A stretch of DNA of 40,199 nt. Source: a virus. Every line of letters starts with the position of its first letter. Positions within the stretch are counted from its first letter, which is position 1. Under the pieces are notes generated by a model. That model was given only the letters and a program-made list of their open reading frames with translations, made no database searches and was not told where the DNA came from. The stretch is from IMG/VR virus record IMGVR_UViG_3300012936_000050, positions 1 to 40,199 of that record, one strand, 5' to 3'. Of the stretch, positions 422-38,548 are shown piece after piece. A program made the translations under genes and the position numbers.

Positions 422-431
422 GTGTAAATTA
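422..431 (+). promoter_or_regulatory. GTGTAAT-type box before tape measure gene
   Basis: GTGTAAATTA lies 10 bases before the ATG at 442 and no Shine-Dalgarno site is present. It belongs to a set of similar boxes before unit-leading genes on both strands; the promoter role is inferred. Of the set, this has the longest distance to the start codon and an A instead of T at box position 7. Confidence 0.5.
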
Positions 432-441
432 CTCATAGCTT

Positions 442-3400
442 ATGAGTACATTTCGCCTACCAGTTGAACAAGTTGGACTTGAACAGTCTATTCAGCGCGC
501 AATGCGTAAATTTCAGAATAATCCTCTGAAAATTAATGTAGACGATAAATCTTTCACACAGCCACTAGGTAGAATTACAGCCTCAGCAGATGAATTTACC
601 AAATCAATCGAAGCTTCTAATGCTCGTGTTGTCGCCTTTGGAGCCTCTGTAGCAGTTATTAATTCAATACAAAACGCATTTAAGCAATTAGTCGTTCAGA
701 CGGTACAAGTTGAGAAATCTCTAGCTGAGATAAATGTAGTTCTCGGGGCAACATCCGCCAATTTAGAAAAATTTGGAAATAACTTATTTAAGATATCAAA
801 AAATACTGCACAGAGTTTTGATCAGGTCGCCGCTGCAGCAACTGAATTTGCAAGACAGGGTTTAAGTGTTGAAAAGACTTTACAAAGAACAAACGACGCT
901 TTAGTATTAACTAGGCTAACCGGAATGAAAGCTACAGATGCCGTAAAAGGTCTTACTGCTGCGGTAAACTCTTTCGCTGATGCGGGAGTTAACACTACAG
1001 AGGTAATGAATAAGCTAGCTGCAGTTGATATGGCTTTTGCTGTTAGTTCAGAAGATTTAATTAATGGTCTTTCTAGAGCAGCTGCTGTAGCCCAAGATGC
1101 AGGTATGAATATTGATCAATTAATAGGATCAATTACAGCCGCACAACAAATTACAGCCAGAGGAGGGGCGGTTATAGGAAACTCATTTAAAACAATCTTC
1201 ACAAGAATACAGCGACCGGAAACACTTAATCAATTAGAGCAATTAGGTATCGCTGTTCGAAATGTTCAGGGTGAAGTTCTTCCTGCGGTTAAAATTTTAG
1301 AAAACCTAGCAAAAACCTACGACAAATTATCTCAATCACAACAATCTAATACCGCACAGCTTGTAGGTGGAATGTTTCAAATCAACGTACTTAAGGCTGC
1401 CATGAGGGACTTAGGCAAAGAAAATAGTATTACCGCTCAAGCAATCAAAATTTCAAGCCAAGCTACAGATGAAGCTAGCAAAAAAAATGAGCAGCTAAAT
1501 AAAACAATGGCTGCTTTAACGAGCAGAACGCTAACCAGCCTACAGCAATTAGCAGCGCAAATAGGGGAAATCACAGTAGGTCCCGGTATAGAAAAAATAC
1601 TTAAAGCTGTCAACGGGCTAGCAGAAGGAATTACAAATGTATTAGATGGAGAAGGGATAGCTAGTGACTTTGCCAACGGATTTTTAAAAGGATTGGGTAA
1701 TATAATAACTGGTCCCGGAGCAGTTTTAATCTTAGGTCTTGTTGGCAAACTATTTATAGATGTTGGTAAATTTGCGAGGACTAGTTTGGCAAATTTCATG
1801 GGTATGACCACAGAAGCCCAAAAACAAAAACAGGTCCAAGAATCTATATTAGGTCTTTTAAGAACAAACTCTGAAGTGGCAAACCAACTCATAGGTCAAG
1901 GGCAAACCAAGACCCAACAAGAACAAGTTTTACTGGACTTAATTGTTAAACAAACTGCGGCCCACAGGGAGCAGCTGAGAGTTGCTCAAGAATTATCTAA
2001 GGTTGCTGTAAAAGCTGGTGCCAATCAAGAATTAATAATACCAAGAAGCAGACGGAGAGCTGGTGGGCATATACCAAATTTTGCAAAAAATGAAAGACAG
2101 GGGGCTCTCGAAGGTGGGTATGCCCCCGGCGCAATAAAATCTATGAACATGCCGGGTGAAGGCATGGTAATCTATAATAGTGCAGAAAAAGTTAAAAAAG
2201 TCAAAGGATTTCAACAACCTTTTATTAACCCTCCAATGTCGAGTAATGCCGGAAAAGAACACAGACAGAGATCAATAGATATGTATGGGGTTGATCCATA
2301 TGCATCAAAAGGGTACGTCCCAAATTATGCGGCGATGAAGTTGAGTTCTTATGCAAGTAAAAAAGGGGTGGGCCTTAGCGAGATAGAGGAAGCGGTGGCT
2401 TCAGGAGAAGTAGACGGTCGTGGAGCTTTTGCATTAGATACTCAGTATCCCGGAATTCATAAAGCAGTCACCAGAGGTATGAATGCGAGAAAAGCGGCGG
2501 CAAGTAAAGTAAAAGCAGATAAAGCTGCACTAATCGAAGCTTCTAAAATTAAAATTGACGCAGGATCATCTTTTTTTGGAGGACCATTTGCAGCGCTTAT
2601 ACCTCAAAGAAATGCTAATTTTGACGAAGAATTTCAGCGAATAGATAGCGTCTTTAAAAAAGGAAAAAATACATACCCCTTCGTCATGACAAATCTAGCG
2701 GTTAGAGGTCCAACGATTCCAGTGCCAGAAGGGCAAGTAACAGAGCCTGACGAATCTAAAATAGAAAAAAATATTTCTCAATCAATTTTTGATAATTCTG
2801 CAAAATATGCAAACACAATTTTACCCGTTGGCAAAGGAGATGTTACTTCGGAAGACATAAAGAAAAAACTTCTTTCCGCAGGAGGAGGCAAAGGGGCTGT
2901 CGCTGCTGCCGTTGGAGCAGGTTTTGAATCAGCCGTAGCCTCTGCGTACGGAATAGACTCTGCTCTCAGGACAGAGGGTGGAGACTTTGATATAAAAGAT
3001 AATATAGACTCAGAATCACTAAAGAAAGTTAATCAATTATTTGGCTTAAAAAATTATAGCATAATGGACTTTAAGGCTTCCGCATCTCCAGACAATCTAA
3101 AAAGCATGGCCAAAAAAATCTTTAACCAAAACCCGAGCAAATTTTTAGATCAAGTTAAAGAAAACAAGGAAAAGGCTCAAAGGTCCGCAGCAGATGGCTT
3201 TATTCCAAACTTTGCAAAATCTCCATTAATGGATGCCATACAAAGAGAAAAGGATGCAGGAGTCCCTGTGTCGGCAATAAGAATTAATCAAAGCGATAAA
3301 CTAATAAGTTCCTCTAATCCAACAGGATTGGCGGTCACGAATACAATTGATGAACCAAGAGGATTAAGAGACGTGCCAAACTTTGCAAGTCCCGCCGCAG

Positions 3401-6400
3401 ATTTTGTTCCCGGAAAAGGAACAAAGGGAGGCGCAGATCCTTCGGAATGGTCTAAGCATAGTAGGTTTGTTAGCGATGATATGAAAAAGTTTGTCAGACT
3501 TTACCAGCGAAAAGCTAAAGAAGAAATGGGAGTACTTAAGCAAACTGCTATTGATCGACTATCTAAGAAAAATGCCAGTAAACATGAAACCAGAGAAGCT
3601 CTCAAACAATTAGGCTTTTCTAAACAAGAAACTAAAGAAGCTCTTAAGCAAATTTCAGCGGCCAGAACTGCTGCAGGAAATCCAATGATGGGACCAACTA
3701 ATGTAGTTAGCGCAGGTATGGACAGCTTTAGGCGTAGAGCAGAAGCCCCCAATGCTAGAGGATTCGCAGGAGGAGTAGGTCGTATGGGTGGAGCAATGAA
3801 TGGAATGGCTTTTATGATGGCAGCGCCAATGGCTGGAGCCTTAATTGATAGCGCCCTAAAATCAGATAAGCCAAGAACACAGCAGTCCGAAGGAGAGAGA
3901 TTTTCTCAAAACGTTGGCTCTAATGTATTGACTGGCGCAGCGACAGGAGCAATGATGGGAGGAATGATTGGTAACGTTGTTCCAGTAATAGGTACTGCTG
4001 TTGGTGCGGCAGTTGGAGGCACAATAGGGGCTATAGGAGGTTTAGCAAAAAGTATTGCAGAGATGGAAATAAGTACGGCTGAATTATCAGAAGCAACACA
4101 AGAGTCTGCCGCCGCACACCAATCGAATATACAAGTTTTCAATAGTATAGCAGATGCGCTTAGAACAGGAGGATCTCAGGAAGTCAAAGACATGATTACC
4201 GCTCAGTCTAATAAAGTAAGCGGAATAAAAGTTAAAGGACAAACTTTTATTGAAGCTTTTAGTGCAGCAGGACAAGATAAAAGCGCTCAACAAGAAGTTA
4301 TGCGTAAGTTTACAGCACAATCAAAAGTTAAAGTAGATCAAGCTGGCTTGTTGGAGTCATTTAGTGCCTTCGGGGAAGTTGTGGATGATTCAGAGGTTGG
4401 TGGCGATATGAGAGATGTTAGGCGCGCAAGGCTAGATAAAAATAACACAGATTATAACCAACAAGATTTCGATAACTTTTCATTATCACTAGGAAAAAGC
4501 CTTTCAGGAGAACAAAGAGCTGCTATGCTTGCAAATTTTGAAGACGGAACCTATGATAATATGAAAGGTTTTTTTGGTAATTATGATGTTGGGGCAGATA
4601 TGGCCTCTCAAATGGGTTTTATCAAAGGAAGCCAAGCTCATGAAGATATGGCTGATAAAATTGAAGACCTCATAGACGACGGCGGATATGAAGAGCTTCA
4701 TCAAGCCATAAAAAAATCAATTGAGGCAGAAGAAAAAAACATTAAGACAGCAGAAAAAGTAGTAGAAGAAAGAAACAACTTCGCCGCACAGCAGGCTGCG
4801 GCAACAATGCAAATGCAAAAAAGACTACTGAAAGACGATGTTTCTTTTATGGATGTAAAAGCAGCTAGAAGTATTAATATGGAGGCCACTAAATTTTTAG
4901 CAAAGTATGAAATTTTAAATAAGTCTATAGGAGAGAGAGTCGAGATACAAAAAGCTGTCGCAAAAAAAGAAATTTTACTTAACGCCCAAACAGCAGAAGA
5001 AGAAAGAATTAGAGGCATTCGAACAAAACTTCTAACAGAAGGCCTAAAGCAAATGGAATCCGAAGGAGTCACTGGCCAAATTACACTTCCAGACGGCACA
5101 GTAATAGAAAGGATAGATGCAGCCAGAGAGGCTATCTTAAATGCTTCAGACGATGCGCTAGTCCAAATGATTGAGGACGGCAAAATTTTAGAGGATATTG
5201 TTCAGACCGATAAAGATATATTTAGGGAAGGGGGAAAGGTATCGAATTTACTATCAGACATAAGCCTAGACTACCAGAAACAAAGTACCTTAGCCAAGAG
5301 AAAGACAGAGTTAGATTTAATAGGGGTGAATCTACAGAGCGAATTAAACCGACTTCAGCAAGAAGAAAAAAGAGCAAGAGAGCATTATGCTATTCAGCTT
5401 CAGTCTGCATCTCAAGACCTTGCAATTGCGAGTCGTCAAGTTGATGTAGCTCTAAAATCTCAACTCGGACAAATAGATAGAGACTTTAAATTGCCATTTG
5501 AAGGTAAACTGCGCGCGGGATCTTCAGACCCAGTTGCGTTAAGAAGGATACAAGAAGAAAAAGAGCTAAAAAGAGCAGATGCGCAAAGAAACGCACAGCA
5601 GCAAAAACTAGCAATTGAGTTAGAAAAATCGTTTGTAGATGCCTTTTCAAACGCGAATAATATTCAAGCTCTAGATGATAACACTGAAGCCATTAAAGAC
5701 CTAACGAGACAAATATCGCAGCGAGAAGCTGAAGCTGTAGCTGCGCCACAATTTGAAACACTTCAACGCTTAGCAGAACAATCAGGGCTTGGTAGTGGTG
5801 GTCCTAGAGCAAGATTACTTTCAGAAGATATAGGTAGCGAAATAAAATCAATTGATACTAAAATAAACGAAATAAAATCTCAAGATATTGGGGGAGATAA
5901 AGTAGATAAAGCAATGGAGGGTTTGTTGGAGCTCATGAATATGGATCGGAAATCAAAAAACCAGTCTCCTCTAAAATTTCAAAAAGATGGTGGTAGTGGA
6001 TTTAGAATATTCGATTCTGCCACAGGCGAGCAAATGCAGACAATTACCGCAGGAGATTTTCAGACATACCTTAAGAGTGAAGATTTTGCAAATGATAAAA
6101 GTATTTTAAATAAAAATTTTACAAACACACAAGCGCAACAAGACCTATTTCCATCCTTTAACCGGAATATGAACGGTCAATTCTTCGGTCAAAATTTACG
6201 AATTAATTCACGGCTCATGGACGCCGGCCTTTCCAACGCCTTTTCTAACGCAATGTCTGCATTTGACGATATTACTCAAGACCTTAAAGCAAGAGAGGGG
6301 ACCTTGATGGAGCTCTCCGGGAAAAAGGCCACCTTTGTTGAAAGACAAAAAGCAGCTGCAAGTGCGGAAGATATAATAAGAGACCAGAATTTAGATCCAT

Positions 6401-9384: not shown

Positions 9385-9407
9385 AAAAGTTATTATTATG
9401 AGTCAAC

Positions 9408-15400: not shown

Positions 15401-15410
15401 AGGCAATTAG
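9408..15410 (+). CDS. Tail-tube-like / distal tail protein fused to about 17 fibronectin III domains, 2000 aa
   Basis: Residues 1-355 resemble phage tail tube proteins and align by eye with the 340-aa product of 22706-23728: SGYLDQYSVN (92-101) matches MYLNSFSVN, and REPIYAVGKDRPVQV (237-251) matches RQPIYVVGKRHPVEV at the same residue numbers. Residues 365-1975 hold about 17 FN3 domains, seen from the repeating W near strand B, Y-DV/Y-I-V strands, GL-G-YY-RV strands and Pro-rich linkers. A short tail (KALLKQTEELILKQ) ends the protein. Directly after the tape measure gene is where distal tail and hub proteins lie, so I infer a tube-capping domain that projects a long FN3 arm, perhaps for weak host-surface binding. 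The start is the first ATG after an in-frame stop at 9399; I see no Shine-Dalgarno site. The FN3 array is secure, the tip role inferred. Confidence 0.82.
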   Translation: MNDANLNYEQKFFIEHYALSGVVSIDGGYEINEQPLNVLGHGYFDSLVNAPLQGNFNITRSLITRDPLLNYTGECGFNGGIYYNGTSFDFVSGYLDQYSVNCSIGSIPEVNSSISVYGNIGGRSRTLEKSKYQPYESNFATHETGEFSISETGLVTGVLTTGIATDPAITKLNPKEGEDYKWIALTGDHPVPATPVLLPEEEGEIIQIPDQGSIIISGFGTESNRVQSFSYDLTIPREPIYAVGKDRPVQVSTIPPYEITANILLHIDDYEAKNVFDYLIQPPQPHEKDLSILVQNSDKTSTIGRYNIPNARLVAENIAAAADSQLEISLTYRGYFNSLDETLVSGALSGDYNIPVDYWEEQCMEPTIPTHIPQALPATNHTQFCFTANWRGHVMDHDYYLDVSKEDPFFNNENKVIDRLLIPSDGNAGVIYSKEICGLEPGTVYYYRVKSTNEKGEESAYSNVVSTITIPTETVITGISDCQDSPNFGYRINWNSVKGASEYLIDVADNVNFLNPIYDRQSVSSTSFLAQNLSAGKVYYSRVTSKNTSGESGYSNIINHIVRAPKPNNPRVIDSGTDFMQIAWDAVPSTDIYKVSVFIDGTSSPIDGYNRKETNDTSMVVKGLIPGNKYYFKIYVENDCGETSGTSPVNHTVPPGKVSNVIAGACTLYGFRISWDNLHGIDSYEIEVTKSLYTNGDPDFSKSIQNYNPATSSVNFLVVTQLEAGTKYYFRVIGKNEGGKGIFSNVGEKTTIPLAPLLNPVTEKDQDSFRINWQAAKGAESYEVDVSTRANNFNPNLTLYDSRQTEDLFIDVTGLSAGEEYKFRVRSINDCGISSSSDSNEECVKPSTPTNLSTSNVTTDSLTLSWTAVPDVDRYLVNVSSLPGMSPTLPDYTNKVSNSNTIEITGLEQDKQYYFTVKSVKDDCGTSPASNVHTEITAKKTKFKVALPATDCTFYGFTANWESDPDTESYELNLSTSPTFDSFISPYNTSFRTTSDKQVISNLSAGTRYYYRLRGHNQHGHSDYSSTITILTFPAEPQVSISEETATSFKASWPTVKSATAYEVDLSKDQNFATFVEPYEDYQIFTNEIVFLNLEKEVQYYVRVRAKNEGCGTGNNSTAKSGTTKGIPEPPSGLTKSVCTLDGFTVSWSADPLADSYNLVVSEDEFFNDFISPYDLDYRTTNLSRSITGLEAGTKYYYKVRSISQYGNSPFSPTSSTTTPPPAPTVSIASKTATSITVSWNATKSATKYEIDYSDDNGVTYTTIENITLTQHTITGLDENKDYKIRVRAGNEDCGFGQNSSDKDGSTGDIPDTPSGVNTSNCIQGGFQVNWQSQSGATSYEIILYKDGVQVLSATAPASANSHNFTNLEDGTEYTYKVKSINEFGSSPLSPAVSVTTKPPAPQNISVSNLSSNAFDLNWDAAKSATEYDIDIATDSNFNNIVQALSSTTNSKSISSLTANTIFYVRIRGANSSCGEGPYSTGKLIKTPHTTPSKITLSPASDCSYSATQGYGFTVNWQADPSADRYTVDISEQSDFSTIKQTISTNLTSQAFVGLLAGTQYFFRVRGVNDSASGEYSESSSKTTIPPAVTNLSTSNITCAGCVDISFNAALGALSYDLYIATDSAFAALLSNYDPKNLTSTSIQVCGLSRGTRYYLKVIAKNDCGEGLETTTSFVTPPNPTTARPASTITANQFVANWDQSTLATHYFIDVATDSAFSNILNSYDKLRVPTTSKTIEGLTQSVYYYRVYAANESGYCQASNTQVVQMVLGPTTTSPASNLTKDCSIEGGTSSSIGAGFTANWTRDPAADGYYLDISNNAGFNSFIDGFDGKKIEGSTSNSALVTGVATGKIFYYRVRSYNDSGESVNSDIREVLTLPFRPLLTPETNIGAESLQINWVPVFSESLSSTSQQASSYKVTYSLNANLSNPIKQNEVTTSSSYTMSQLSAGKTFYYQVIATNASGDSCESLIRSVSTSKALLKQTEELILKQDGSAILLESGN
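10503..15330 (+). repeat. Array of about 17 FN3 domains in two cysteine-marked types
   Basis: Each unit is about 85-110 residues. Type A units carry a Cys just before strand B (CTLYGF, CTFYGF, CTLDGF, CIQGGF), or close to it. Type B units lack that Cys but have one near the end (NDCG, DDCG, EGCG, EDCG, SSCG). Read from the N-terminus the order is A A B A B B A B A B A B A B B A B. The amino-acid pattern is conserved while the DNA has diverged, so the array looks old rather than recently amplified. Confidence 0.8.
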
Positions 15411-15419
15411 TGTAATATA
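15410..15419 (+). promoter_or_regulatory. GTGTAAT box before first fibre gene
   Basis: GTGTAATATA overlaps the last base of the preceding TAG stop and lies 7 bases before the ATG at 15427. There is no Shine-Dalgarno site, so a transcript starting here would have almost no leader. The promoter role is inferred from the recurrence of the box. Confidence 0.55.
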
Positions 15420-15426
15420 ATATGTT

Positions 15427-17881: not shown

Positions 17882-18111
17882 TACATGCTTTTTCATGTAA
17901 AAAGAACTTTGTTCATGGAGCAATAGTTTGCGAACACAAAAGGCCTAGAACCGATCTATTTGAGTCCATTCCTATACCTAACCAAGATATTAAAATTATA
18001 GTATTAGACGACGCAGAATATGATAATTTATGGGAAGAATGTATTAGGTCTCCGTATATTGGCACAAAACCTAAATTCCGTATAAAAGACAATAAGCTGT
18101 CTAAGGTGTAA
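17878..18111 (+). CDS. Small protein in fibre operon, 77 aa
   Basis: The ATG overlaps the previous stop by four bases, and AAGGG about 10 bases upstream can serve as a Shine-Dalgarno site. The protein is soluble-looking: a Cys-containing N-terminus (HAFSCKKNFVHGAIVCEHK), a hydrophobic strand (IKIIVLDD), a W-containing helix (NLWEECI) and a basic end. I recognise no family. Small genes directly after adhesin genes often encode fibre chaperones or minor tip proteins, but nothing in the sequence proves that here. Confidence 0.65.
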   Translation: MIHAFSCKKNFVHGAIVCEHKRPRTDLFESIPIPNQDIKIIVLDDAEYDNLWEECIRSPYIGTKPKFRIKDNKLSKV

Positions 18112-18115
18112 TTTA
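18106..18115 (+). promoter_or_regulatory. GTGTAAT box before S74 fibre gene
   Basis: GTGTAATTTA overlaps the stop of the 77-aa gene and lies 8 bases before the ATG at 18124. No Shine-Dalgarno site is present. The promoter role is inferred. Confidence 0.55.
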
Positions 18116-18123
18116 TATTAGTC

Positions 18124-20312: not shown

Positions 20313-20314
20313 TA

Positions 20315-21286
20315 ATGCATCTAGCTACACTACCATATTTAATTGGCGGAATTTCATGTGGTTGCAAATGCAACGAGTCTGGATTTACATATATTCCCTT
20401 AGGTCGAGGCGGAGTTTTTGATCTGTCTCAATATATAGGAGAGATTGAAGGGCCGTACAGCTGGTCCTTATACTGGTATTATGATTCTGGTTCCGCACCA
20501 TGTTCCGGAACTAACTACCTTTACGGAACATGGGGTTTAGACGCAAACGGTGTCACAAAAACAAGAAAATGTATTAATGCAAAGCAAGAACCTTGGTGGA
20601 TTGTTAAAGGAGGTTATTTTAAAATAGTCAGAGCTGATGATGGAACCGGAGGAAATCCGCCTATTAACGTGCCCGGAAGATACTGGTATGCAGAAAATCA
20701 TGACGATTCATACCCCGTTGGAGACTATGGTACTAATTTTAAACTTTGTATTACTTGCTTGAAAGGTCAGTCTACCAATATTAATGGTATAGATGTATTA
20801 GGCTCAACAAACTGCTCCGCTGCGAGTACCGTAACACCGCCAGATAAGGGCAGTCCACCAACAGATATTATTTTAGATAATTTAACCATTAAAGAGTATG
20901 AACCTGCGGGCACGCTTGTTGGGAAACTAACAGGAGTCGATCCAGATAATGATATAGATGGGTTTTTTATGTTTGGTCTTTTTACTGTGCCATATGGTTC
21001 GAATACAAAATTTGCAATTAATACGGTTAGCTCAGAATTTCATCTAGTTACAGATCCACTAGAGACCGTTCCTGCAAATACAGGCCTTCCCGTCGCGCCC
21101 TTAGTAACTCCATTTTTTCATTATGACACAGAACAGTCTTATGATATAAAAATCCGAGCAATCGACTCATTCGGTCAGGCATTTGATAAAATTTTTACAA
21201 TAACAGTTATTGAGCAAGATGGTATTGAAGCAGACAGCAATTACCCGCTAGAATCTGATGATGGCACACTTCTTTTCCACGATTGA
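20315..21286 (+). CDS. Cysteine-rich tail tip protein with cadherin-like domain, 323 aa
   Basis: The gene starts two bases after the previous stop without a clear Shine-Dalgarno site, so it may depend on translational coupling. Residues 1-170 are aromatic-rich and hold eight cysteines (15, 17, 19, 63, 86, 145, 148, 167), including a CGCKC cluster and a CITC pair; metal binding or disulfides are possible. Residues 181-300 resemble a cadherin-like / Ig-like beta-sandwich (PPTDIILDNLTIKEYEPAGT, GVDPDND, YDIKIRAIDSFGQ), with DPDND a plausible calcium site. The protein lacks the fibre anchor, so it may sit on another tip protein. Confidence 0.7.
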   Translation: MHLATLPYLIGGISCGCKCNESGFTYIPLGRGGVFDLSQYIGEIEGPYSWSLYWYYDSGSAPCSGTNYLYGTWGLDANGVTKTRKCINAKQEPWWIVKGGYFKIVRADDGTGGNPPINVPGRYWYAENHDDSYPVGDYGTNFKLCITCLKGQSTNINGIDVLGSTNCSAASTVTPPDKGSPPTDIILDNLTIKEYEPAGTLVGKLTGVDPDNDIDGFFMFGLFTVPYGSNTKFAINTVSSEFHLVTDPLETVPANTGLPVAPLVTPFFHYDTEQSYDIKIRAIDSFGQAFDKIFTITVIEQDGIEADSNYPLESDDGTLLFHD

Positions 21287-21304
21287 AAAAATAAAAATTT
21301 GACA

Positions 21305-21310
21305 TATAAT
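21305..21310 (+). promoter_or_regulatory. TATAAT box just before 21316 start
   Basis: A perfect TATAAT lies only 5 bases before the ATG at 21316 and there is no Shine-Dalgarno site. The spacing matches the GTGTAAT boxes elsewhere. If used as a -10 element it would give a leaderless mRNA. Confidence 0.4.
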
Positions 21311-21315
21311 ATAGT

Positions 21316-21822: not shown

Positions 21823-21826
21823 ATGC

Positions 21827-22684: not shown

Positions 22685-22691
22685 TGTTTTA

Positions 22692-22701
22692 GTGTAATTT
22701 A
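22692..22701 (+). promoter_or_regulatory. GTGTAAT box before tube protein gene
   Basis: GTGTAATTTA lies 4 bases before the ATG at 22706. A TTGGAA at 22670-22675 is 17 bases before TGTAAT, so this copy alone could also pass as a sigma70-like promoter. No Shine-Dalgarno site is present. Confidence 0.55.
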
Positions 22702-22705
22702 TAGC

Positions 22706-23728
22706 ATGAGCAGCAAAAGAAGTTTTTACAGATATACAGAAACACCTCTTTATATAAAGGATACTCCTGCAGATAAGCAGCATTTGGCGAATACCCATGA
22801 TTACCCTGAATACGTCCAAAATAGCACGGTAAATAAACTAGACTACATGTATTCAACTTCGGCTGGTCTCTCTATTTCAGCATCTACACCCCCATTAAGA
22901 ACACTTGGAAGCACTCAACTTCACAAGTATTTTCCAGATGGTCCACTTACTGCTACATTAAATACAGACTTTTATTTAAATGCTGCAACTCAAAGAATTG
23001 TTACCACTACTGGTGAGTCCGCAGAATTACACGGTCAACTTGCTGGATTTAATTTCGGACAAATGTACCTTAACTCATTTAGCGTGAATATGGAACCATA
23101 TGCGCCAGCATTAATCAGCGCAGACTTTTCTATATATCGCATGAGTAGTGATAAAAACGCAAGTACTTCAGCCACAGTTAACGATGATTATCGATTTACA
23201 GGATCTCCTACAAGCTTAGGTGCAGACGCAGAATTAGAGGGAAATAATTTAAATAGTAAAGCTGGAGGCTCAGATCCATCCTCTTTTCCTCCTCCAGTTA
23301 CTCTCGATCTTTTATCTACGCATAACCATGTTATGAGCGACGTACAAGGATTAAATAGAAGCACCTACGGCATTCAGCATCCTGTATCAATAAGTTTTTC
23401 CGAACAATTTGAGCGTCAACCCATTTATGTTGTTGGTAAGAGACATCCCGTTGAGGTTAATCTTGGTGCAGTTAATAGAGAGCTCACAATCCAAGGAGAG
23501 GATATTGGAAAGGTTATTAGCTTTCAAGGCCACGATAAAGGTTCTGAAGGAGCGGGAACAAAAGCTAAAGTTAGCATAGCATTAAGGACGATCGGTACAG
23601 AAAACCAGCCCGGTACGCAGATGGGTAGACTCCTAGAAATTTCTGGGGTGGTAGACACTCAAGATATTAGTGTTTCAGCCGGAGGCTTCATGGAAGGCTC
23701 TGTAACGATAAAACAGTCGGTAAGATAA
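22706..23728 (+). CDS. Probable tail tube (major tail) protein, 340 aa
   Basis: Two segments match features common in phage tail tube proteins: MYLNSFSVNMEPYAPALIS (120-138), comparable to the GYLTSYSV...GDIPTA strand pair, and FSEQFERQPIYVVGKRHPVEV (231-251), comparable to the PIY-LG--NP strand. The N-terminal 355 residues of the giant FN3 protein at 9408 carry the same two segments, at similar or identical residue numbers. The gene has its own box directly before its start, as expected for a structural protein needed in many copies. It is the last gene of the tail module and converges on the opposite-strand minor tail gene with four bases between stops. An alternative is a second tube-like ring protein, with the main tube gene outside the window. 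Confidence 0.68.
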   Translation: MSSKRSFYRYTETPLYIKDTPADKQHLANTHDYPEYVQNSTVNKLDYMYSTSAGLSISASTPPLRTLGSTQLHKYFPDGPLTATLNTDFYLNAATQRIVTTTGESAELHGQLAGFNFGQMYLNSFSVNMEPYAPALISADFSIYRMSSDKNASTSATVNDDYRFTGSPTSLGADAELEGNNLNSKAGGSDPSSFPPPVTLDLLSTHNHVMSDVQGLNRSTYGIQHPVSISFSEQFERQPIYVVGKRHPVEVNLGAVNRELTIQGEDIGKVISFQGHDKGSEGAGTKAKVSIALRTIGTENQPGTQMGRLLEISGVVDTQDISVSAGGFMEGSVTIKQSVR

Positions 23729-23732
23729 TCGG

Positions 23733-25043: not shown

Positions 25044-25057
25044 CTTACTTAATAAAG

Positions 25058-25519
25058 TTATCCAGAAGGAGCGTCTTTTCCTGCGACTTGAACAGGTTTC
25101 GTCTGAAATGATATATACGCACTGACTAGCTTATTTAATTCCTCTGCGTAAGCGCTCGATAAAGACCTGTAGGCGCCCGCAGCGGTCGTTTTGTTAGGTC
25201 GCACGATCATCGACCCATCTGCGTCTCTAATCTGTATAAAATCGCTTGATGTGGTGGCTCCCTGTAAAGTCTTTCTGGACATAGAATTATTAAATGACTT
25301 TAGATACATCGCGCGCAGAATAGCTTCCTCTTCTGCGCAAAAATCTCCTGTAGGGGAAATGTAATTTCCGCTTACCTCAAAAGAGGTATGAATTAACGTA
25401 TTAAGTTCTCCCACGTGAGAAGAGAGCCACCCAGATATTGATGTCAGCGGAGCAACAGAAGCATCTCCGTCAAATTCGTAGTCAAGAATGCTTCTAGCTA
25501 AACCACTGATATCACTCAT
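25058..25519 (-). CDS. Probable head-tail connector or completion protein, 153 aa
   Basis: The start codon overlaps the previous stop (TAATG) and is preceded by a good Shine-Dalgarno site (GAGGTG), so translation is coupled. The protein looks mainly helical with a Ser/Thr-rich centre: SGLARSILDYEFDG, then EEEAILRAMYLKSFNNSM, then AYAEELNKLVSAYISFQTK. I recognise no named family. Genes of this size between the capsid and minor tail genes usually encode connector or neck proteins; the assignment rests on position. Confidence 0.6.
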   Translation of the reverse strand: MSDISGLARSILDYEFDGDASVAPLTSISGWLSSHVGELNTLIHTSFEVSGNYISPTGDFCAEEEAILRAMYLKSFNNSMSRKTLQGATTSSDFIQIRDADGSMIVRPNKTTAAGAYRSLSSAYAEELNKLVSAYISFQTKPVQVAGKDAPSG

Positions 25520-25950
25520 TATTCACCTCTTATGATCCTCAAAGCTTCTTCGTATGATTCGCTTTCAGGATTTAATTTAATCTGCTGTTCGAGACTTTGG
25601 CCTGCAATACCCTGAGTTTTATTTCTGGCGTTGAATGCCTTTAAGAGTCTCTTTTTTAAATTTGGCTTATTAGGGCTTGGCATTACGCCCACTCTAACTG
25701 CGAGAGTTTGCATATCTACCAAAGTCATTTCTGAAATATTTTCTTCAAACACTTGCGCATTGCTAGTACCGAATTCATTGACTTCTTTTACCCCCAATAC
25801 GCTTTCTAACGTTCTTACTTGGTCGGTATATTCTTTGCCCGTAGTTTGCTCCATAGATTCTAACTTATCGAGCAGTGACTTTGATTGACTTTCCTGAGTT
25901 TGTTTCGCAGGAGTCTTCTTTTTTGTAGTTTTACTTTTTTTAGTAGCCAT
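25519..25950 (-). CDS. Lysine-rich head-region protein with SAP-like helix pair, 143 aa
   Basis: The N-terminus is very basic (KKSKTTKKKTPAKQTQ), which suggests nucleic-acid contact or a disordered tail. Residues about 75-115 (MTLVDMQTLAVRVGVMPSP, then LKKRLLKAFNAR) have the helix-turn-helix outline of SAP/HeH-like motifs, in which L-V-L-A-R-G-V and K--L---L recur. The ATG has an A/G-rich leader with AAGG repeats (AAAGGAAAAAGGT) and an extended -10 promoter upstream. A head-tail joining or capsid-associated DNA-contact role is inferred from position. Confidence 0.6.
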   Translation of the reverse strand: MATKKSKTTKKKTPAKQTQESQSKSLLDKLESMEQTTGKEYTDQVRTLESVLGVKEVNEFGTSNAQVFEENISEMTLVDMQTLAVRVGVMPSPNKPNLKKRLLKAFNARNKTQGIAGQSLEQQIKLNPESESYEEALRIIRGE

Positions 25951-25975
25951 ACCTTTTTCCTTTTACCTTAAAGTT

Positions 25976-26003
25976 ATTATATCAGATGTTACACACAATT
26001 CAA
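25976..26003 (-). promoter_or_regulatory. Extended -10 promoter candidate for connector/minor tail unit
   Basis: On the minus strand, TTGAAT (26003-25998) and TGATATAAT (25984-25976) are separated by 16 bases between the hexamers; TG-n-TATAAT is a full extended -10. A GTGTAACATC copy lies between them. The likely start would leave a leader of about 20 bases with AAGG sites before the ATG at 25950, unlike the leaderless units. Confidence 0.55.
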
Positions 26004-26010
26004 GTCTTTT

Positions 26011-26045
26011 AGAAAAACAAAAAGCCCGCCATAAAGGCGGGCTTT
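26011..26045 (-). terminator. Intrinsic terminator after major capsid gene
   Basis: A perfect 10-bp stem (AAAGCCCGCC, 26021-26030, with GGCGGGCTTT, 26036-26045) surrounds the 5-base loop ATAAA. Read on the minus strand it runs into TTGTTTTTCT, a normal U-tract. It lies 24 bases past the capsid stop and separates the capsid unit from the connector unit. Confidence 0.9.
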
Positions 26046-26068
26046 CTGGTTAAGGGTTATTTATGTCC

Positions 26069-27259: not shown

Positions 27260-27287
27260 TATATATTTTTTCCTTTTCGTTTAAAGA

Positions 27288-27941: not shown

Positions 27942-27955
27942 TTTATTATTATTGT

Positions 27956-29590: not shown

Positions 29591-29594
29591 GTGA

Positions 29595-29604
29595 TTTGTT
29601 ACAC
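29595..29604 (-). promoter_or_regulatory. GTGTAA box before protease-scaffold gene
   Basis: GTGTAACAAA lies 4 bases before the ATG at 29590. It is the most divergent member of the set beyond the GTGTAA core. There is no Shine-Dalgarno site. The gap to the portal stop is only 29 bases. Confidence 0.45.
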
Positions 29605-29619
29605 CAATTAAAAAGAATA

Positions 29620-31581: not shown

Positions 31582-31586
31582 TGAGT

Positions 31587-31596
31587 TTTATTACAC
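31587..31596 (-). promoter_or_regulatory. GTGTAAT box before portal gene
   Basis: GTGTAATAAA lies 5 bases before the ATG at 31581, in the 62-base gap after the large terminase. The gap also holds the palindrome AAAGTACTTT (31632-31641) next to AAAGTTACTTT. No Shine-Dalgarno site is present. Confidence 0.5.
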
Positions 31597-31643
31597 GCGT
31601 TTTTATATAATAAAAGTATAAAGTTACTTTTAAAGTACTTTTT

Positions 31644-33515: not shown

Positions 33516-34459
33516 TATGCATCCTCCTTATTTTTTGTAGATTTATCAATGTAGTATTGCATATCGCAATCCCATATTTTATCACCAAGGGTTACGATCT
33601 TTGGAATAATTTCTTCAGACTTTGATCGACTGCCTGAAAATACAAATTGACAAACTCCAGCATAATCATGAGTTAAGACACGCATATTATGCCAAACGTA
33701 TTTTAAGTTAGATTTGTGTGCTGCAAAATTATTATTTCTTTTGATTTTTTCAATACTACTCTCTACAACAATAAACATGTAGCATCCAAAGTCTCTCGTT
33801 CTATCAAGTTCTTTTTTAAACCTTTCAAAGCCGGTGGTCATTGTAGATTTAAAATCTTGCTCGCTTTTCCTGTCAACGTAAGTATAGGCGTATTGATCTC
33901 CTGCGGCAGTATAATCCCCAAAATCTAATTTCATTATTGATTGACTAGGAAAGGAGAGAGGTTTTTGTTCTCTTGTATCAATAAATATTTTAGTGTCTTG
34001 GAAGTTCTCTGTAAAAAATTCTCTTGGAATCCTTTTGGTAAAAATCGGCGGTACTCCAACTTTTTCACATGCTGCGGAATAAGAGCCGAATAACATTTTT
34101 AAACTGTCTATTGGGGGCAGGTCTAATATCTCTAGCTCTAAATGATTTGGAGCCCTTTTAAGGCCTTTCTCGGCGACCCTAAGACTAATTTGCTTAATAG
34201 CGTATTTTTTTGCCTCTAAAGAGTCTTTGTTTTTTGCAAGCCATTGTATCATCTGCCATCTGGTAGAAAAGCTATTATTAAAGTAATCCTTTTTGTTTTT
34301 AAATGGAAGCGGCTCTCCAGTCAGTAAGTTTTTTCTGGGGTAGTATGTTGTATAATATTCGGCCATTGTAACAGAATGAGACTTCAGGTGGATATGAAGC
34401 CCCTTTTCTGAGTCAAATGCTTTATTGCATATCTTGCAAACTATACTGTTCTTGTCCAT
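33515..34459 (-). CDS. C2H2 zinc finger plus ERCC4-type nuclease, about 314 aa
   Basis: Residues 8-28 form a classic C2H2 finger (C8-x2-C11-x12-H24-x3-H28) followed by EYYTTYYPRKNLLTGEPLP. The middle has helical repeats around FGSYSAACEKVGVPP, like DNA-binding modules of phage nucleases. Residues about 158-300 are an ERCC4 (XPF/MUS81-like) nuclease: IDTREQKPL with D161 and E164, DFGDY with D182, and VDRKSEQDF with D196-R-K198. The family cuts branched or structured DNA; together with the terminase it may clear junctions before packaging. I chose the ATG at 34459; an in-frame TTG at 34483 is the alternative. The gene overlaps its neighbours on both sides. Confidence 0.82.
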   Translation of the reverse strand: MDKNSIVCKICNKAFDSEKGLHIHLKSHSVTMAEYYTTYYPRKNLLTGEPLPFKNKKDYFNNSFSTRWQMIQWLAKNKDSLEAKKYAIKQISLRVAEKGLKRAPNHLELEILDLPPIDSLKMLFGSYSAACEKVGVPPIFTKRIPREFFTENFQDTKIFIDTREQKPLSFPSQSIMKLDFGDYTAAGDQYAYTYVDRKSEQDFKSTMTTGFERFKKELDRTRDFGCYMFIVVESSIEKIKRNNNFAAHKSNLKYVWHNMRVLTHDYAGVCQFVFSGSRSKSEEIIPKIVTLGDKIWDCDMQYYIDKSTKNKEDA

Positions 34460-35034
34460 ATCGTCAGAGCGTATTTTGTCCAATCTTTCGGGGGAAGTCC
34501 TTCATGGGTAGACTCTCGGTTTAATTTTCCATCAACAATATTTTTCCACATTAATAATTTACCAGTTTTTGGCTTGATTATCGTAGAGAGTTTAGGGAAT
34601 CTGGTTTCCCCACCCCGCTCTCCTTCATTTAAATAAAATAAAAACGTAAAGCCTCTTTGCATTCTTGAGATAGGGCTGATGCTTGAGTATCTTAAGTATT
34701 CTTCTGGTAAAAAATCGTCATGGGCAGCATAATATTCTCCGGGAGAATATTTTAAGAATTGTGGAGTTTCTTGAAACGCAATATCCCGACCTGAAATTTC
34801 TGCACAATATTTTTGCAGTTCTTCAAGCGCGGGGTGTTTTTTGGGAGATATCCATGAAAGCTGATTGGTGCGAGTTTTCGACTGCTTACCCATGGTTCGG
34901 GCGGGCTTAAGCATAAGCTCTCCTATACTAATGATTTCTTTACATACGTTCGCGGGTATAACTTCTTCACAAGTGAATACTCCATCTTGAATTAAAGTTA
35001 TCCTTTTAGGTGATATATGTTTATACCGCGTCAT
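34441..35034 (-). CDS. 2-oxoglutarate/Fe(II)-dependent dioxygenase (prolyl-4-hydroxylase-like), about 197 aa
   Basis: It has the full facial-triad outline of the family: H105-x-D107 (YYAAHDDF), then RGGETRFPKL, a distal H177 (STHEGLP) and a 2-oxoglutarate-binding basic residue (K187, WTKYALTIW). Such enzymes use Fe(II), O2 and 2-oxoglutarate to hydroxylate protein side chains or DNA/RNA bases; the P4H-like layout favours a protein substrate, perhaps a virion or host protein. Related genes occur in many aquatic phages. I used the ATG at 35034. A TTG at 35049 with GGAAGG about 9 bases upstream would add five residues. It overlaps the genes on both sides, so it is part of the packaging operon. 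Confidence 0.83.
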   Translation of the reverse strand: MTRYKHISPKRITLIQDGVFTCEEVIPANVCKEIISIGELMLKPARTMGKQSKTRTNQLSWISPKKHPALEELQKYCAEISGRDIAFQETPQFLKYSPGEYYAAHDDFLPEEYLRYSSISPISRMQRGFTFLFYLNEGERGGETRFPKLSTIIKPKTGKLLMWKNIVDGKLNRESTHEGLPPKDWTKYALTIWTRTV

Positions 35035-36073
35035 CTCTAGATAAACCAAGAATTCTAGCCTTCCAAGACTCCATAGATTCTAAACGATCCGCCTCCTCGT
35101 TCACTAGCTTTTTTTGCATTTCAGCCATCTTAACCATCACTTCTCTTTCTTTTTCGCTTTGAAAATTTTCTACCAATGACAAAATATTCGCATTTTGACC
35201 TTGCTTGCTTTCTATTCGTCGGGCACGATCTCCGTTTAATTTTTTAATTAAAGACTCCATTCGTTTCTCACACTTATCATACTCTTCACTTTTAGTTTTT
35301 AAGAGTTCCGCAAGACGAACTGTCATTTCTTGCTGAGAGTCTGCATCATTAAACATTCTATTTAGCTTTTCGATATTTCTACTTATATTCCTAAGGTTGA
35401 TATAATCTATACAGACGTTAATGTATAAATTAACTTCGTCGGTGGTTAAGTCGGGTTTTTCCCAAGTTGCCCTAACAAATTCTGCTTCAAAAAGCTCTCG
35501 ATCTTCTTTATCTCTATAATTATTAATAGTATTTACAAATCTAGGAGCCTGAAGAAAATGTACGAGTTTTTCTAGTGACTTTTTTTCTATAGAGCTTAGC
35601 TGTGAAGACTCGAGCCCTGTATTCAAGTAAAGATTTACGAGCTGGATAGCTTCATCTGTTGATGAAGGAGGCATATATTTTTCTTTTACCTTTGGTTTCT
35701 CTGCAGCAGAAATTAAGGTGGGTGCGACATCTGTTAGGAATGACATAACAGATCTCTGCTCCATAGATAACTTTTTTACTTCAACGTCTGGAAAAACAAT
35801 TTGAGCGATTTGAAAAGAACTCAGCCCGTCTTCGGCAAGGTCAAGAACTTCTTCTTTTTGATCATCCGTGAGATTAATAGGTTCTTTTTTCTCTTTTTTT
35901 GTTGTGTTGAAATTTAATTCTTCTTTGATCAAAAAATCCTTTACCGCCCGACCTTCTTTTGACCTACCGTCTAAAGTTTCATCAAGAAAAACTGCCTGAG
36001 TCAATTTAATTAAATCAGGAATTTTCTTATGGTTTTCTCTTAGATATTTTCTTTGTTCTTTATTTAGCTTCAT
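35021..36073 (-). CDS. Coiled-coil protein with duplicated helix-turn-helix-like N-terminus, 350 aa
   Basis: The N-terminal third holds two similar helical units: IPDLIKLTQAVFLDETLDG ending AVKDFL (about 18-48), and LSSFQIAQIVFPDVEVKKL ending SVMSFL (about 82-113). Both suggest DNA-binding modules. The middle (140-235) is alpha-helical. Residues about 235-340 form a charged coiled coil. It is encoded three genes before the large terminase in one operon, so a small-terminase or packaging-recognition role is possible but unproven. A perfect extended -10 (TGATATAAT) lies 8 bases before the start, inside the end of the sigma gene. No Shine-Dalgarno site is evident. Confidence 0.65.
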   Translation of the reverse strand: MKLNKEQRKYLRENHKKIPDLIKLTQAVFLDETLDGRSKEGRAVKDFLIKEELNFNTTKKEKKEPINLTDDQKEEVLDLAEDGLSSFQIAQIVFPDVEVKKLSMEQRSVMSFLTDVAPTLISAAEKPKVKEKYMPPSSTDEAIQLVNLYLNTGLESSQLSSIEKKSLEKLVHFLQAPRFVNTINNYRDKEDRELFEAEFVRATWEKPDLTTDEVNLYINVCIDYINLRNISRNIEKLNRMFNDADSQQEMTVRLAELLKTKSEEYDKCEKRMESLIKKLNGDRARRIESKQGQNANILSLVENFQSEKEREVMVKMAEMQKKLVNEEADRLESMESWKARILGLSRDDAV

Positions 36074-36074
36074 G

Positions 36075-36791
36075 TTACATAATTATATCAGTTCGATCAA
36101 GTATTTCTTCTGCTTTGGCTAAAAACATCTTTTTCAAATTTTTTATTTGCTTGTATCCAGCCTTTCTTCCTTTTTCATTACTTTTGTAACCCATTGTTTC
36201 TGCAACTTTCTCATCTGGAATATTTTCAATATATATTAACCTATATATCGTATAGTGCTTTTCGCTTAACTTTTTTTTCATTTCAGAGTGGAGTTTTGAG
36301 GCGGAACTCATAACGTCAAAAGAATCTTGTTGTATGCTAAAAACCTCCTGCGGGTGATGGTCTAAGGCAAGGGGCATTTTTATATCATAGGCATTTTTTT
36401 TAGTTTTTTCCCATTTGGCATACAGAGGGCATTCCCCGCACTGCACCCCGCTTGGAGTAAATGCACACATACCTGAATGAGACTCATCAGCCTCTGTTGA
36501 AGAAGATTGGGCGAATGGACAATTCAAACATGGTCGAGCAAAGTTGGTATAATAATTTCTAAATATATTTTTAAGCTGGTTAGATATAATTTTATTAACC
36601 CAAGGAGCTAGAGATCGCTTTTGATCCCACTGATCCCATTTTTTATATATGTGAGCCCTAATTATTTGTTCGACATCATCGTAATCCATCCATGCCAAGG
36701 CGTGAAGATGCCATTTATGCCTTCTTTTTCGAAGTTCGTTATCGATTACATCCGCACGATCTTCGTATCTGAGTTTTCTAGGTCTACCCAT
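36075..36791 (-). CDS. Phage-encoded sigma factor with cysteine-rich insert, 238 aa
   Basis: Residues 30-85 match sigma region 2: MDYDDVEQIIRAHIYKKW, then LAPWVNKIISNQLKNIFRNY, the -10-recognition and core-binding helices. Residues 175-230 match a region-4-like HTH: LSEKHYTIYRLIYIENIP, KVAETMGY, KQIKNLKKMF. Between them lie five cysteines (88, 91, 109, 118, 121; CxxC...C...CxxC), probably a metal-binding insert. Domain order and size recall late sigma factors such as T4 gp55 (185 aa), but the insert is unusual. The start overlaps the zinc-ribbon gene by 8 bases. I infer that it redirects host RNA polymerase to the phage's own late promoters, most plausibly the GTGTAAT boxes of this window. 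Confidence 0.8.
   Translation of the reverse strand: MGRPRKLRYEDRADVIDNELRKRRHKWHLHALAWMDYDDVEQIIRAHIYKKWDQWDQKRSLAPWVNKIISNQLKNIFRNYYTNFARPCLNCPFAQSSSTEADESHSGMCAFTPSGVQCGECPLYAKWEKTKKNAYDIKMPLALDHHPQEVFSIQQDSFDVMSSASKLHSEMKKKLSEKHYTIYRLIYIENIPDEKVAETMGYKSNEKGRKAGYKQIKNLKKMFLAKAEEILDRTDIIM
36082..36090 (-). promoter_or_regulatory. Extended -10 (TGATATAAT) before coiled-coil gene
   Basis: A perfect TG-n-TATAAT lies 8 bases before the ATG at 36073, within the last codons of the sigma gene. No -35 match is seen at 17 bases. It would give a leaderless mRNA for the packaging operon. Confidence 0.45.
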
Positions 36792-37173
36792 TTAACTCAG
36801 TTGGTTTACCTTGGTTGCGGCATGCCTGCATGCTTTCCATGATAACATCCTTTTCAGACTGAGTAGCGTTGCTTTTGTTTGAAGGCGCTCGGCTTATTCT
36901 GGGCGCTGGGGCAGAAGGATTTTCAATTATTTCTTTACCCTTAATGATATTTGGCATACCATAGTCCACATCATAAGATAGCTGATTTATATTTGGGACT
37001 CTCTCAACATTAGTCTCATCCTCTTGGAGGGTTTGACTTTGCGCAGCAGAAGATTTGCTTGGCATTTGCGAAACTTCAGGAGACATACTTGTTCCGCAGC
37101 TAGAACAAAACTTGGGTTTCGGGTAGGAATATTCAATTTTTGCTCCGCAGCTTGTACAATACACACTATTCAT
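36784..37173 (-). CDS. Zinc-ribbon protein, 129 aa
   Basis: Residues 6-26 form a four-cysteine zinc ribbon (C6-x2-C9-x13-C23-x2-C26; YCTSCG ... FCSSCG). The rest is low-complexity and Ser/Pro/Ala-rich, with no enzymatic motif. Its stop overlaps the sigma gene start by 8 bases, so the two are translationally coupled and may act together; zinc ribbons often contact RNA polymerase or nucleic acid. An accessory role in late transcription is inference. Confidence 0.7.
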   Translation of the reverse strand: MNSVYCTSCGAKIEYSYPKPKFCSSCGTSMSPEVSQMPSKSSAAQSQTLQEDETNVERVPNINQLSYDVDYGMPNIIKGKEIIENPSAPAPRISRAPSNKSNATQSEKDVIMESMQACRNQGKPTELNG

Positions 37174-37175
37174 AT

Positions 37176-37185
37176 TTAATTATAC
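37176..37185 (-). promoter_or_regulatory. GTATAATTAA box before zinc-ribbon/sigma genes
   Basis: GTATAATTAA contains a perfect TATAAT 5 bases before the ATG at 37173. It differs from the GTGTAAT consensus mainly by A for G at the third position, so the sigma operon may be read by the host enzyme, the phage sigma, or both. Confidence 0.4.
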
Positions 37186-37202
37186 GTTTTTTTTGCAATA
37201 AA

Positions 37203-37775
37203 TCAACTTTTAGACAAATAGCCTGCAATGATTCGAGCCTGCATTTTTAAGGATTGCATGCCTTCCCCGCAAACTTCTTTTTTCTGCTTAACAAAATCTA
37301 CCCCTAAAACACCTATAATTCTACCATTTAATAATTTAATAGGAACACATCCAATTGATCGTACGCCTTGTCTTTTTAATTTATCTTTTAATGTAGAATC
37401 CTCAATGGTATTAATATCTCCATAACAGAAGCCATCATTCTTAACTAAATCTTTAATAAAATAATTATAATTTGATACCCTATGGTTTTGGCTGTTTGGA
37501 GCTTCACAACTTATACCCTCATCTACGATTTCATATGTGCAACTAAATTTTTGCTGAGAATTTCCACTGTAGTAGTGATCGCCGTTATGAAATTGATGAA
37601 CGTAACAGCGGTCTGCAGAAAGCTCTTCTAGAGTATACGACAGCGCAGTATATATATTGTCATTTCTGTCAATATCAAACGGAAGGGGGTCTTTTCTTTG
37701 TCGGATCTTACTAGATATGTAAACACCGCCAATGGTAAAAGCTCCTCCTATTAATGCGCAAATTATCTCTATCAT
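37203..37775 (-). CDS. Membrane-anchored GAF-like domain protein, 190 aa
   Basis: Residues 3-22 form a single hydrophobic segment (EIICALIGGAFTIGGVYIS) followed by basic residues (SSKIRQRKD), so the rest should face the cytoplasm. Residues 38-190 have the outline of a GAF domain: an N-terminal helix, YVHQFHNGDHYYSG, GVRSIGCVPIKLLNGRIIG and VLGVDFVKQKK. Five cysteines lie in the domain. GAF domains bind small ligands or sense redox state. I do not know its role; exclusion, lysis timing or a host-state sensor are possibilities. It carries its own GTGTAATTTA box 5 bases before the start. Confidence 0.7.
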   Translation of the reverse strand: MIEIICALIGGAFTIGGVYISSKIRQRKDPLPFDIDRNDNIYTALSYTLEELSADRCYVHQFHNGDHYYSGNSQQKFSCTYEIVDEGISCEAPNSQNHRVSNYNYFIKDLVKNDGFCYGDINTIEDSTLKDKLKRQGVRSIGCVPIKLLNGRIIGVLGVDFVKQKKEVCGEGMQSLKMQARIIAGYLSKS

Positions 37776-37780
37776 TAGGG

Positions 37781-37790
37781 TAAATTACAC
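37781..37790 (-). promoter_or_regulatory. GTGTAAT box before GAF-like gene
   Basis: GTGTAATTTA, identical to the copies at 18106 and 22692 on the other strand, lies 5 bases before the ATG at 37775. No Shine-Dalgarno site is present. Confidence 0.55.
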
Positions 37791-37794
37791 CAAA

Positions 37795-38520
37795 TTATTT
37801 GCTCTCTAATTTTCCAATGATAAATTTAAGTAATTCATCTCGCATGATGTCATGTTTTGTAAATCGAAAGCAGTGGATGCCTTTCAATTTACTATCTTCG
37901 TCATTAAATAAATTATACATCGCATTAAAGCCACTCTTGCCATTAATGTCACTTTGCATAAAATCACCACAAATAAATAATTTAGTATTTTCGCCAATTC
38001 GAGTTATAAGAGTAGTTAACTCTTTAAATGTAAAGTTTTGAGCTTCGTCTGCCACGACAATTTTGTTGATCCAGTTCGCTCCCCTTATAAAGTTTATAGG
38101 CATGGCCTGAACTCTTTGCTCCATAAGCTCTTTCATGACTGTGGGGGCTGTGTTCTTCGCGGGTAGCATCTCGTCAAGCTTATCTTGTAGTGGGCCCATA
38201 TATGGGTTAAACTTTTCGTCTATGTTGCCGGGCAGGGCGCCAAGACCCTTGTCTGCACTTTCAATAATAGTTCTTATATACATTAAATCTAAATCATTAT
38301 TATTACTTAAGTGGCGTAAGGCAGAATAAACTGCCATATATGTTTTTGAGCTTCCAGCTGGACCACAAACGAACATTATTCGAGTGTCCTCTCTTAAAGA
38401 AAGAGCTATAAACTCCTTTTGTTTCTTTGTAAGTCGTTTGTTTTCAACTTTAAACTCAGTTGACTTTAATTGAGGTATTTGAAATGCCTCTTCTTGTTTA
38501 GCAGTTTTTTTGCGTGCCAT
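37795..38520 (-). CDS. phoH: PhoH-like P-loop ATPase, 241 aa
   Basis: The ATPase domain carries Walker A GPAGSSKT (53-60), Walker B VVADEAQN (155-162) and the PhoH-type surrounding segments (LTKKQKEFIALSLRED, LGALPGNIDEKFNPYMGPL, FICGDFMQSD). PhoH proteins are P-loop ATPases related to superfamily 1 helicases and are common in marine phages; the phage role is not settled (RNA handling and phosphate stress have been suggested). The gene heads the minus-strand module; its GTGTAATCTA box forms half of a palindrome with the box of the divergent gene. No Shine-Dalgarno site is evident. Confidence 0.93.
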   Translation of the reverse strand: MARKKTAKQEEAFQIPQLKSTEFKVENKRLTKKQKEFIALSLREDTRIMFVCGPAGSSKTYMAVYSALRHLSNNNDLDLMYIRTIIESADKGLGALPGNIDEKFNPYMGPLQDKLDEMLPAKNTAPTVMKELMEQRVQAMPINFIRGANWINKIVVADEAQNFTFKELTTLITRIGENTKLFICGDFMQSDINGKSGFNAMYNLFNDEDSKLKGIHCFRFTKHDIMRDELLKFIIGKLESK

Positions 38521-38527
38521 CTATTTT

Positions 38528-38537
38528 TAGATTACAC
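38528..38537 (-). promoter_or_regulatory. GTGTAAT box before phoH (left half of divergent palindrome)
   Basis: Read on the minus strand: GTGTAATCTA, 7 bases before the phoH ATG at 38520. One base (A) separates it from the mirror-image box at 38539-38548. Confidence 0.55.
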
Positions 38538-38538
38538 A

Positions 38539-38548
38539 GTGTAATATA
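38539..38548 (+). promoter_or_regulatory. GTGTAAT box before ParS-like gene (right half of divergent palindrome)
   Basis: GTGTAATATA lies 6 bases before the ATG at 38555. With the opposite box it makes a 21-base inverted repeat differing at one symmetric pair. Confidence 0.55.

Follow-up and report, generated by a model that had tools for sequence, protein, structure and literature searches.

A few cultured phages are known to have promoters that consist of a single element and are read by a phage sigma factor, and certain bacteria are known to make leaderless mRNAs. The closest described systems comprise (i) the late promoters of phage T4, served by the sigma factor gp55 together with gp33 and the gp45 clamp, in which a single box lies one helical turn upstream of +1 and no -35 element is present (PMC2988020); (ii) the middle and late promoters of phiEco32, in which tAATGTAtA stands alone, transcription starts 6-8 bp downstream, and the sigma factor, gp36, is reported to lack region 4 (PMC8948821); (iii) the late promoters of phage 7-11, which depend on gp47 and read GTAAtg-16-aCTA (PMC8948821); and (iv) bacterial leaderless promoters, such as those of mycobacteria, in which the -10 element immediately precedes the start codon and a Shine-Dalgarno (SD) sequence is lacking (PMC4633059; PMC5397173). 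In phage AR9 the measured leaders are 26-491 nt long, although the authors of that study describe phage transcripts as often leaderless (PMC5312081). Leaderlessness of T4 late transcripts is not described in PMC2988020, and a search of open-licence papers found no phage family with leaderless late-type promoters.

The DNA analysed here, called the window, is a 40.2-kb virus record (40,199 nt) encoding tape measure, tail fibre, terminase, PhoH-like, nuclease and sigma-like proteins. Similarity to its terminase and sigma proteins retrieved hundreds of relatives from IMG/VR, with contigs of up to 211 kb, and two of the large relatives, G002 (203 kb) and G003 (211 kb), were analysed at full length, gene calls being longest-ORF calls throughout. 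Among cultured phages, neither the sigma factor S1 nor the probable portal protein, so labelled from its position after the large terminase subunit (TerL) and not from a family match, found any match, and TerL itself found distant matches only, with no record covering 80% of its length. The family comprises large uncultured phages of bacteria and is probably marine, as judged from the sigma factor, PhoH and the context of the records.

The earlier note on this DNA had described nine GTGTAA boxes shortly before start codons, and all nine are present where it placed them (Table 1). Each of the boxed genes begins with ATG and, as had been proposed, none carries an SD sequence, with AAGGAGG standing before TerL; the scoring script counted eight of the nine as boxed and likewise found an SD in none. 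The hexamer occurs 13 times in the window against 15.7 expected by chance, so that the signal lies in position and not in number: nine copies lie in sense orientation at most 24 nt upstream of a start, one is sense coding, two are antisense coding and one falls in other DNA. One copy had been overlooked (23027-23032, minus strand, antisense within a gene). The copy at 25989-25994, which had been set aside as lying inside a promoter, follows a strong terminator and very probably represents a genuine tenth box.

Table 1. Boxes and associated features of the window; gap is the number of nucleotides between GTGTA and the start codon.
Feature	Position	Strand	Start codon or gene	Gap (nt)	Predicted leader (nt)	Remarks
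GTGTAA box	422..427	+	tape measure gene, ATG 442	15		boxed in the one distinct ortholog
GTGTAA box	15410..15415	+	tail fibre gene, 15427	12		ortholog boxed
GTGTAA box	18106..18111	+	tail fibre gene, 18124	13		overlaps stop codon of upstream ORF
GTGTAA box	22692..22697	+	gene at 22706	9	0	orthologs boxed 3/3
GTGTAA box	29599..29604	-	544-aa gene, ATG 29590	9	0	GTGTA in 27/36 distinct orthologs
GTGTAA box	31591..31596	-	653-aa probable portal gene, ATG 31581	10	1	GTGTA in 16/16 distinct orthologs
GTGTAA box	37785..37790	-	GAF-domain gene, ATG 37775	10	1	GTGTA in 21/35 orthologs
GTGTAA box	38532..38537	-	phoH-like gene, ATG 38520	12		GTGTA in 16/19 orthologs
GTGTAA box	38539..38544	+	small gene, 38555	11		back to back with phoH box
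Probable tenth GTGTAA box	25989..25994	-	ATG 25950		~30, with SD	after terminator; overlaps sigma70-like site 25976-26003
Intrinsic terminator	26018..26048	-				ends capsid operon, upstream of tenth box
Sigma factor S1, 238 aa	36075..36791	-				region 2, Cys-rich insert, region 4; candidate box reader
Zinc-ribbon protein gene	36784..37173	-				immediately before S1; 13/13 records tested have a homolog
Sigma70-type promoter TTGATT-16-TATAAT	37179..37206	-	zinc-ribbon/S1 unit			5 nt before ATG
Sigma70-type promoter TTGAAA-16-TATAAT	21283..21310	+	ATG 21316			5 nt before ATG; leaderless in layout too

The density of GTGTAA reaches 12.5/kb upstream of window genes compared with 0.03-0.05/kb in coding DNA, and 5.2 and 3.4/kb compared with 0.04-0.10/kb in G002 and G003; instead of being equally frequent in coding regions, the hexamer is enriched upstream about 50-70-fold in these two independent genomes of ~200 kb. 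Motif discovery, suggested earlier as a check, was carried out by unsupervised EM on upstream regions and returned GTGTAAT/GTGTAA separately in the window, G002 and G003. Genes preceded by GTGTAA at the right distance number 8 in the window, 21 in G002 and 12 in G003, and permuted hexamers precede a mean of 0.0-0.6 and a maximum of 3.

The element is also retained among relatives. Orthologs were collected for each of the 30 window genes and counted as distinct when their 60-nt upstream regions were less than 80% identical; the 30 nt before the start contain GTGTA in 81 of 107 distinct orthologs of boxed genes versus 13 of 301 of unboxed ones (p 5e-48, a nominal value since the sequences share phylogeny), and the sequence around the conserved pentamer is otherwise divergent. 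Retention is incomplete, as in the GAF-domain gene. The part conserved family-wide is GTGTA, followed by A, T or C in decreasing order (45/27/14), and not the full GTGTAATNTA, a 10-mer matched exactly by 6 of the 9 window boxes, which narrows the core first proposed. One lineage (L097, L134, L154) apparently uses GTGTATAA in place of GTGTAAT, and drift at the sixth base may track the sequence of the sigma factor.

The distance from GTGTA to the start codon peaks at 9 nt (71 ATG, 18 GTG) and 10 nt (54 ATG), with a tail to ~16 nt, and at gaps of 8-11 nt there are 141 occurrences versus 9-38 for control pentamers. A count by start codon at gap 9 gave 69 ATG, 16 GTG and one TTG, GTG thus being allowed and TTG practically not; the GTG starts largely represent a clade of portal orthologs, with GTG at exactly this gap. 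At gap 9 a pyrimidine stands before the ATG in 68 of 71 cases; the proportion is 41% at gap 10 and 53% for unboxed genes (p 1e-10 to 1e-12). The best reading is a Y(-1)R(+1) initiator located on the start codon itself, a step at fixed distance that resembles the start site of an RNA polymerase. These patterns support placing +1 nine nucleotides after GTGTA, giving G-14 T-13 G-12 T-11 A-10. The view of TGTAAT as a -10 element is upheld in that no position upstream of the box is conserved across 170 aligned sites, in agreement with the earlier statement that no consistent -35 is seen; according to the initiator signature, however, its alignment with the sigma70 -10 hexamer has to be shifted by roughly one base. 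Likewise, a start at or just before the ATG fits the genes with predicted leaders of 0 or 1 nt, the others having predicted leaders of ~2-7 nt, and since five of the nine window boxes have gaps above 10 nt, strict leaderlessness would apply to a part of the transcripts; the predicted mRNAs are more exactly described as 'leaderless or nearly so'.

Compared with the described systems, the GTGTA class works like the T4 late and phiEco32 promoters, judged from its layout, and belongs to neither. It shares with the T4 late promoters (i) a lone element situated roughly one helical turn before +1, without a -35 and with an AT-rich downstream stretch; (ii) a phage sigma factor acting on host RNA polymerase, a role that here would fall to a putative factor; and (iii) matching bases at T-13, T-11, A-10 and A-9, given +1 as placed by the initiator signature. 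In contrast, G occupies -14 and -12 where T4 has TATA-box bases, GTGTA(A/T/C) is found in place of the T4 late consensus TATAAATA at -13 to -6, and S1 possesses region 4, a further difference from the T4 late system. The phiEco32 gp36 promoters have in common with the present class the single element, the (here presumed) phage sigma and the core TGTA, but outside TGTA the consensus differs and the boxes do not conform to tAATGTAtA. The predicted start, nine nucleotides after GTGTA, would be compatible with the 6-8 bp of the phiEco32 element. Phage 7-11 resembles this family in using a sigma factor with region 4 for its late genes, but its promoter is bipartite, with an upstream element that the GTGTA class lacks. 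With bacterial leaderless promoters the boxes share position and the lack of an SD, each boxed gene of the commonest arrangement having its -10 element no more than ~10 nt before the start; there, however, the host sigma reads a TATAAT-type element, whereas the element here is the phage-specific GTGTA.

Taken together, GTGTA is likely to be the sole element of a phage-specific, -10-only promoter at which host RNA polymerase, guided by a phage sigma factor, starts leaderless or near-leaderless mRNAs. According to this model, GTGTA (G-14 to A-10) would be recognised on its own, and the promoter class would drive virion genes and some others. Host polymerase directed by a phage sigma, most likely S1 and possibly a second factor, S2, would start at a purine ~10 nt downstream, which in the commonest arrangement would be the first base of the start codon, so that the mRNAs would be leaderless or carry leaders of a few nucleotides and would be translated without an SD. 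The sigma70-type promoter before the zinc-ribbon and S1 genes suggests that host polymerase would make S1, which would then activate the boxed genes. The zinc-ribbon protein may be a co-factor of the sigma.

S1 is most likely a sigma-70 family (ECF-like) factor, as its predicted model (pLDDT 75.5) contains both a region 2 and a region 4 fold. The Sigma70_r2 match lies below the Pfam cut-off in the window and above it in 7 of 10 records, and an alignment of 29 sequences has 55 invariant columns, with four cysteines among the conserved residues. The best matches to solved structures are mostly sigma factors, ECF types being prominent; since the Foldseek E-values are weak (0.01 and worse), the fold evidence consists of the consistency of this list and of region 4 taken alone (residues ~160-235), which superimposes on sigma4 structures with an rmsd of 2.0 over 62 residues. 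Whole-length matches to ECF factors give Z values of 8.3-8.8 with a large rmsd, the two domains being mobile. No profile similarity to gp36 of phiEco32 was detected with hhalign (probability 0.2%, E 0.35). A phage-encoded multisubunit RNA polymerase was rejected, no match to an RNA polymerase beta subunit being found in ten records, with all controls positive; a search for single-subunit RNA polymerases gave no match either, but its controls were silent too, which makes it uninformative.

The most serious alternative retains the boxes as promoters and assigns their recognition to S2 or to an unrecognised activator acting with the host sigma, and not to S1. Region 4 normally contacts the -35 element, and its presence in S1, although the box has no -35, is the main loose end; moreover, six records of more than 100 kb (G001-G006) carry S2, a second sigma-like gene of ~200 aa, beside S1 (for instance G002:26208-26414 and G003:134086-134274). 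The strong conservation of S1 and its location in the packaging and structural cluster weigh against this alternative, which is possible though clearly less likely. A phage sigma is probably the reader of the box, with S1 as first choice and S2 as a further candidate.

A second alternative, that the box is a variant of the host's own housekeeping -10 element, draws on the TATAAT promoters that lie near the ATG in the same genomes. These TATAAT elements peak 5-6 nt before ATG, as do two sigma70-type promoters of the window in their layout, so that starting on short leaders is probably usual for the host ribosomes too and not peculiar to boxed genes, LEADERLESSNESS appearing to be general here. 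Some of them, however, show the weak TTGA-like -35 expected of host sigma70, which the GTGTA elements lack, and the zinc-ribbon/S1 unit of the window has a promoter of that sigma70 type, making a host variant very improbable.

GTGTA could alternatively act in the mRNA as a translation-initiation signal in substitution of the SD, a proposal that the fixed distance to the start codon and the lack of an SD in boxed genes would suit equally well. The gene that follows the capsid operon (window 25519-25950) separates the two functions: in 16 of 16 distinct upstream regions the terminator is followed by GTGTA and then by ~14-46 nt before the ATG, with an SD between box and ATG in several of them. 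More generally, an SD is found in 3 of 203 genes with a box at gap 8-16 versus 15 of 57 at gap 25-40, and a terminator precedes the box in 9 of 203 versus 12 of 57; terminators as general predecessors of boxes are therefore discarded, being a feature of the 25-40 class and not of the 8-16 class. The post-capsid regions and the SD counts indicate that the box is tied to the head of the unit and not to the ATG, the SD arising where the leader has room, and keeping to the unit head is promoter behaviour. In addition, the pyrimidine/purine step appears at one box-to-ATG spacing only, and the box stands before chosen genes, being absent before TerL, S1 and the capsid gene both in the window and in relatives. 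A ribosomal signal is accordingly very improbable.

The description of the boxed genes as unit-leading nevertheless goes beyond the gene order, in which several boxes lie within runs of genes on the same strand and are not preceded by any called terminator. A comparison of strand-switch heads with the inside of gene runs (2/2 in the window, 6/34 in G002) is suggestive of a box commoner at the heads, but the presence of other promoters at many heads keeps it from being decisive.

It is likewise very improbable that a phage repressor or activator binds GTGTA as an operator half-site superimposed on host-type promoters: back-to-back TACAC-N-GTGTA pairs do exist, mainly in the phoH divergent region, and one box overlaps a sigma70-like site (25976-26003), but almost every site stands alone and points the same way (at gap 8-11, TACAC 9 versus GTGTA 141), on which ground a paired operator site was rejected, and they combine a fixed distance to the initiator with the lack of an accompanying -35. 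Chance recurrence is ruled out by the de novo motif, the permuted hexamers, the ortholog footprint and the upstream density.

If GTGTA is such a single-element promoter, the family would join single-element promoters and leaderless mRNAs, with a start site readable from the DNA itself, so that promoters, operons and true start codons could be annotated across hundreds of uncultured genomes. It would also become testable whether a virus can steer its late expression through leaderless translation. Late timing is suggested by the presence of virion genes in the boxed set, which also includes metabolic genes. A more tentative, rather doubtful extension is that leaderless mRNA is a property of the late regulon throughout the family: one phage sigma would set the starts of virion mRNAs on the start codon, and the ribosome pool would be switched to leaderless translation late in infection.

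The phoH gene and the gene opposite to it have back-to-back boxes 1-7 nt apart (window 38528-38548; L169:15886, L090:5034, L127:1915), so that simultaneous polymerase occupancy of both promoters would be impossible. The portal-gene box is immediately preceded by a series of ACTTT/AAAGT repeats (31606..31640, minus strand), which is found in all ~20 distinct relatives, ACTTT reaching 3.06 copies per 60 nt before the portal gene versus 0-0.21 before other genes (L007, L017, L024, L154 and others); the array is possibly an activator site or a packaging site.

Regarding the host, an identification from two genome-collection matches was dropped, these being MAG contigs with uncertain binning. DUF1501 is a family known mainly from Planctomycetota and Verrucomicrobiota, and its occurrence in four of the five large relatives examined for it (G002:107101, G003:159532, G005:46245, G006:16614) is a possible hint. 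Both large relatives analysed at full length carry a tmRNA gene, G002 at L165:6699-7062 and G003 at L175:15016-15391, and G003 also has four tRNA genes.
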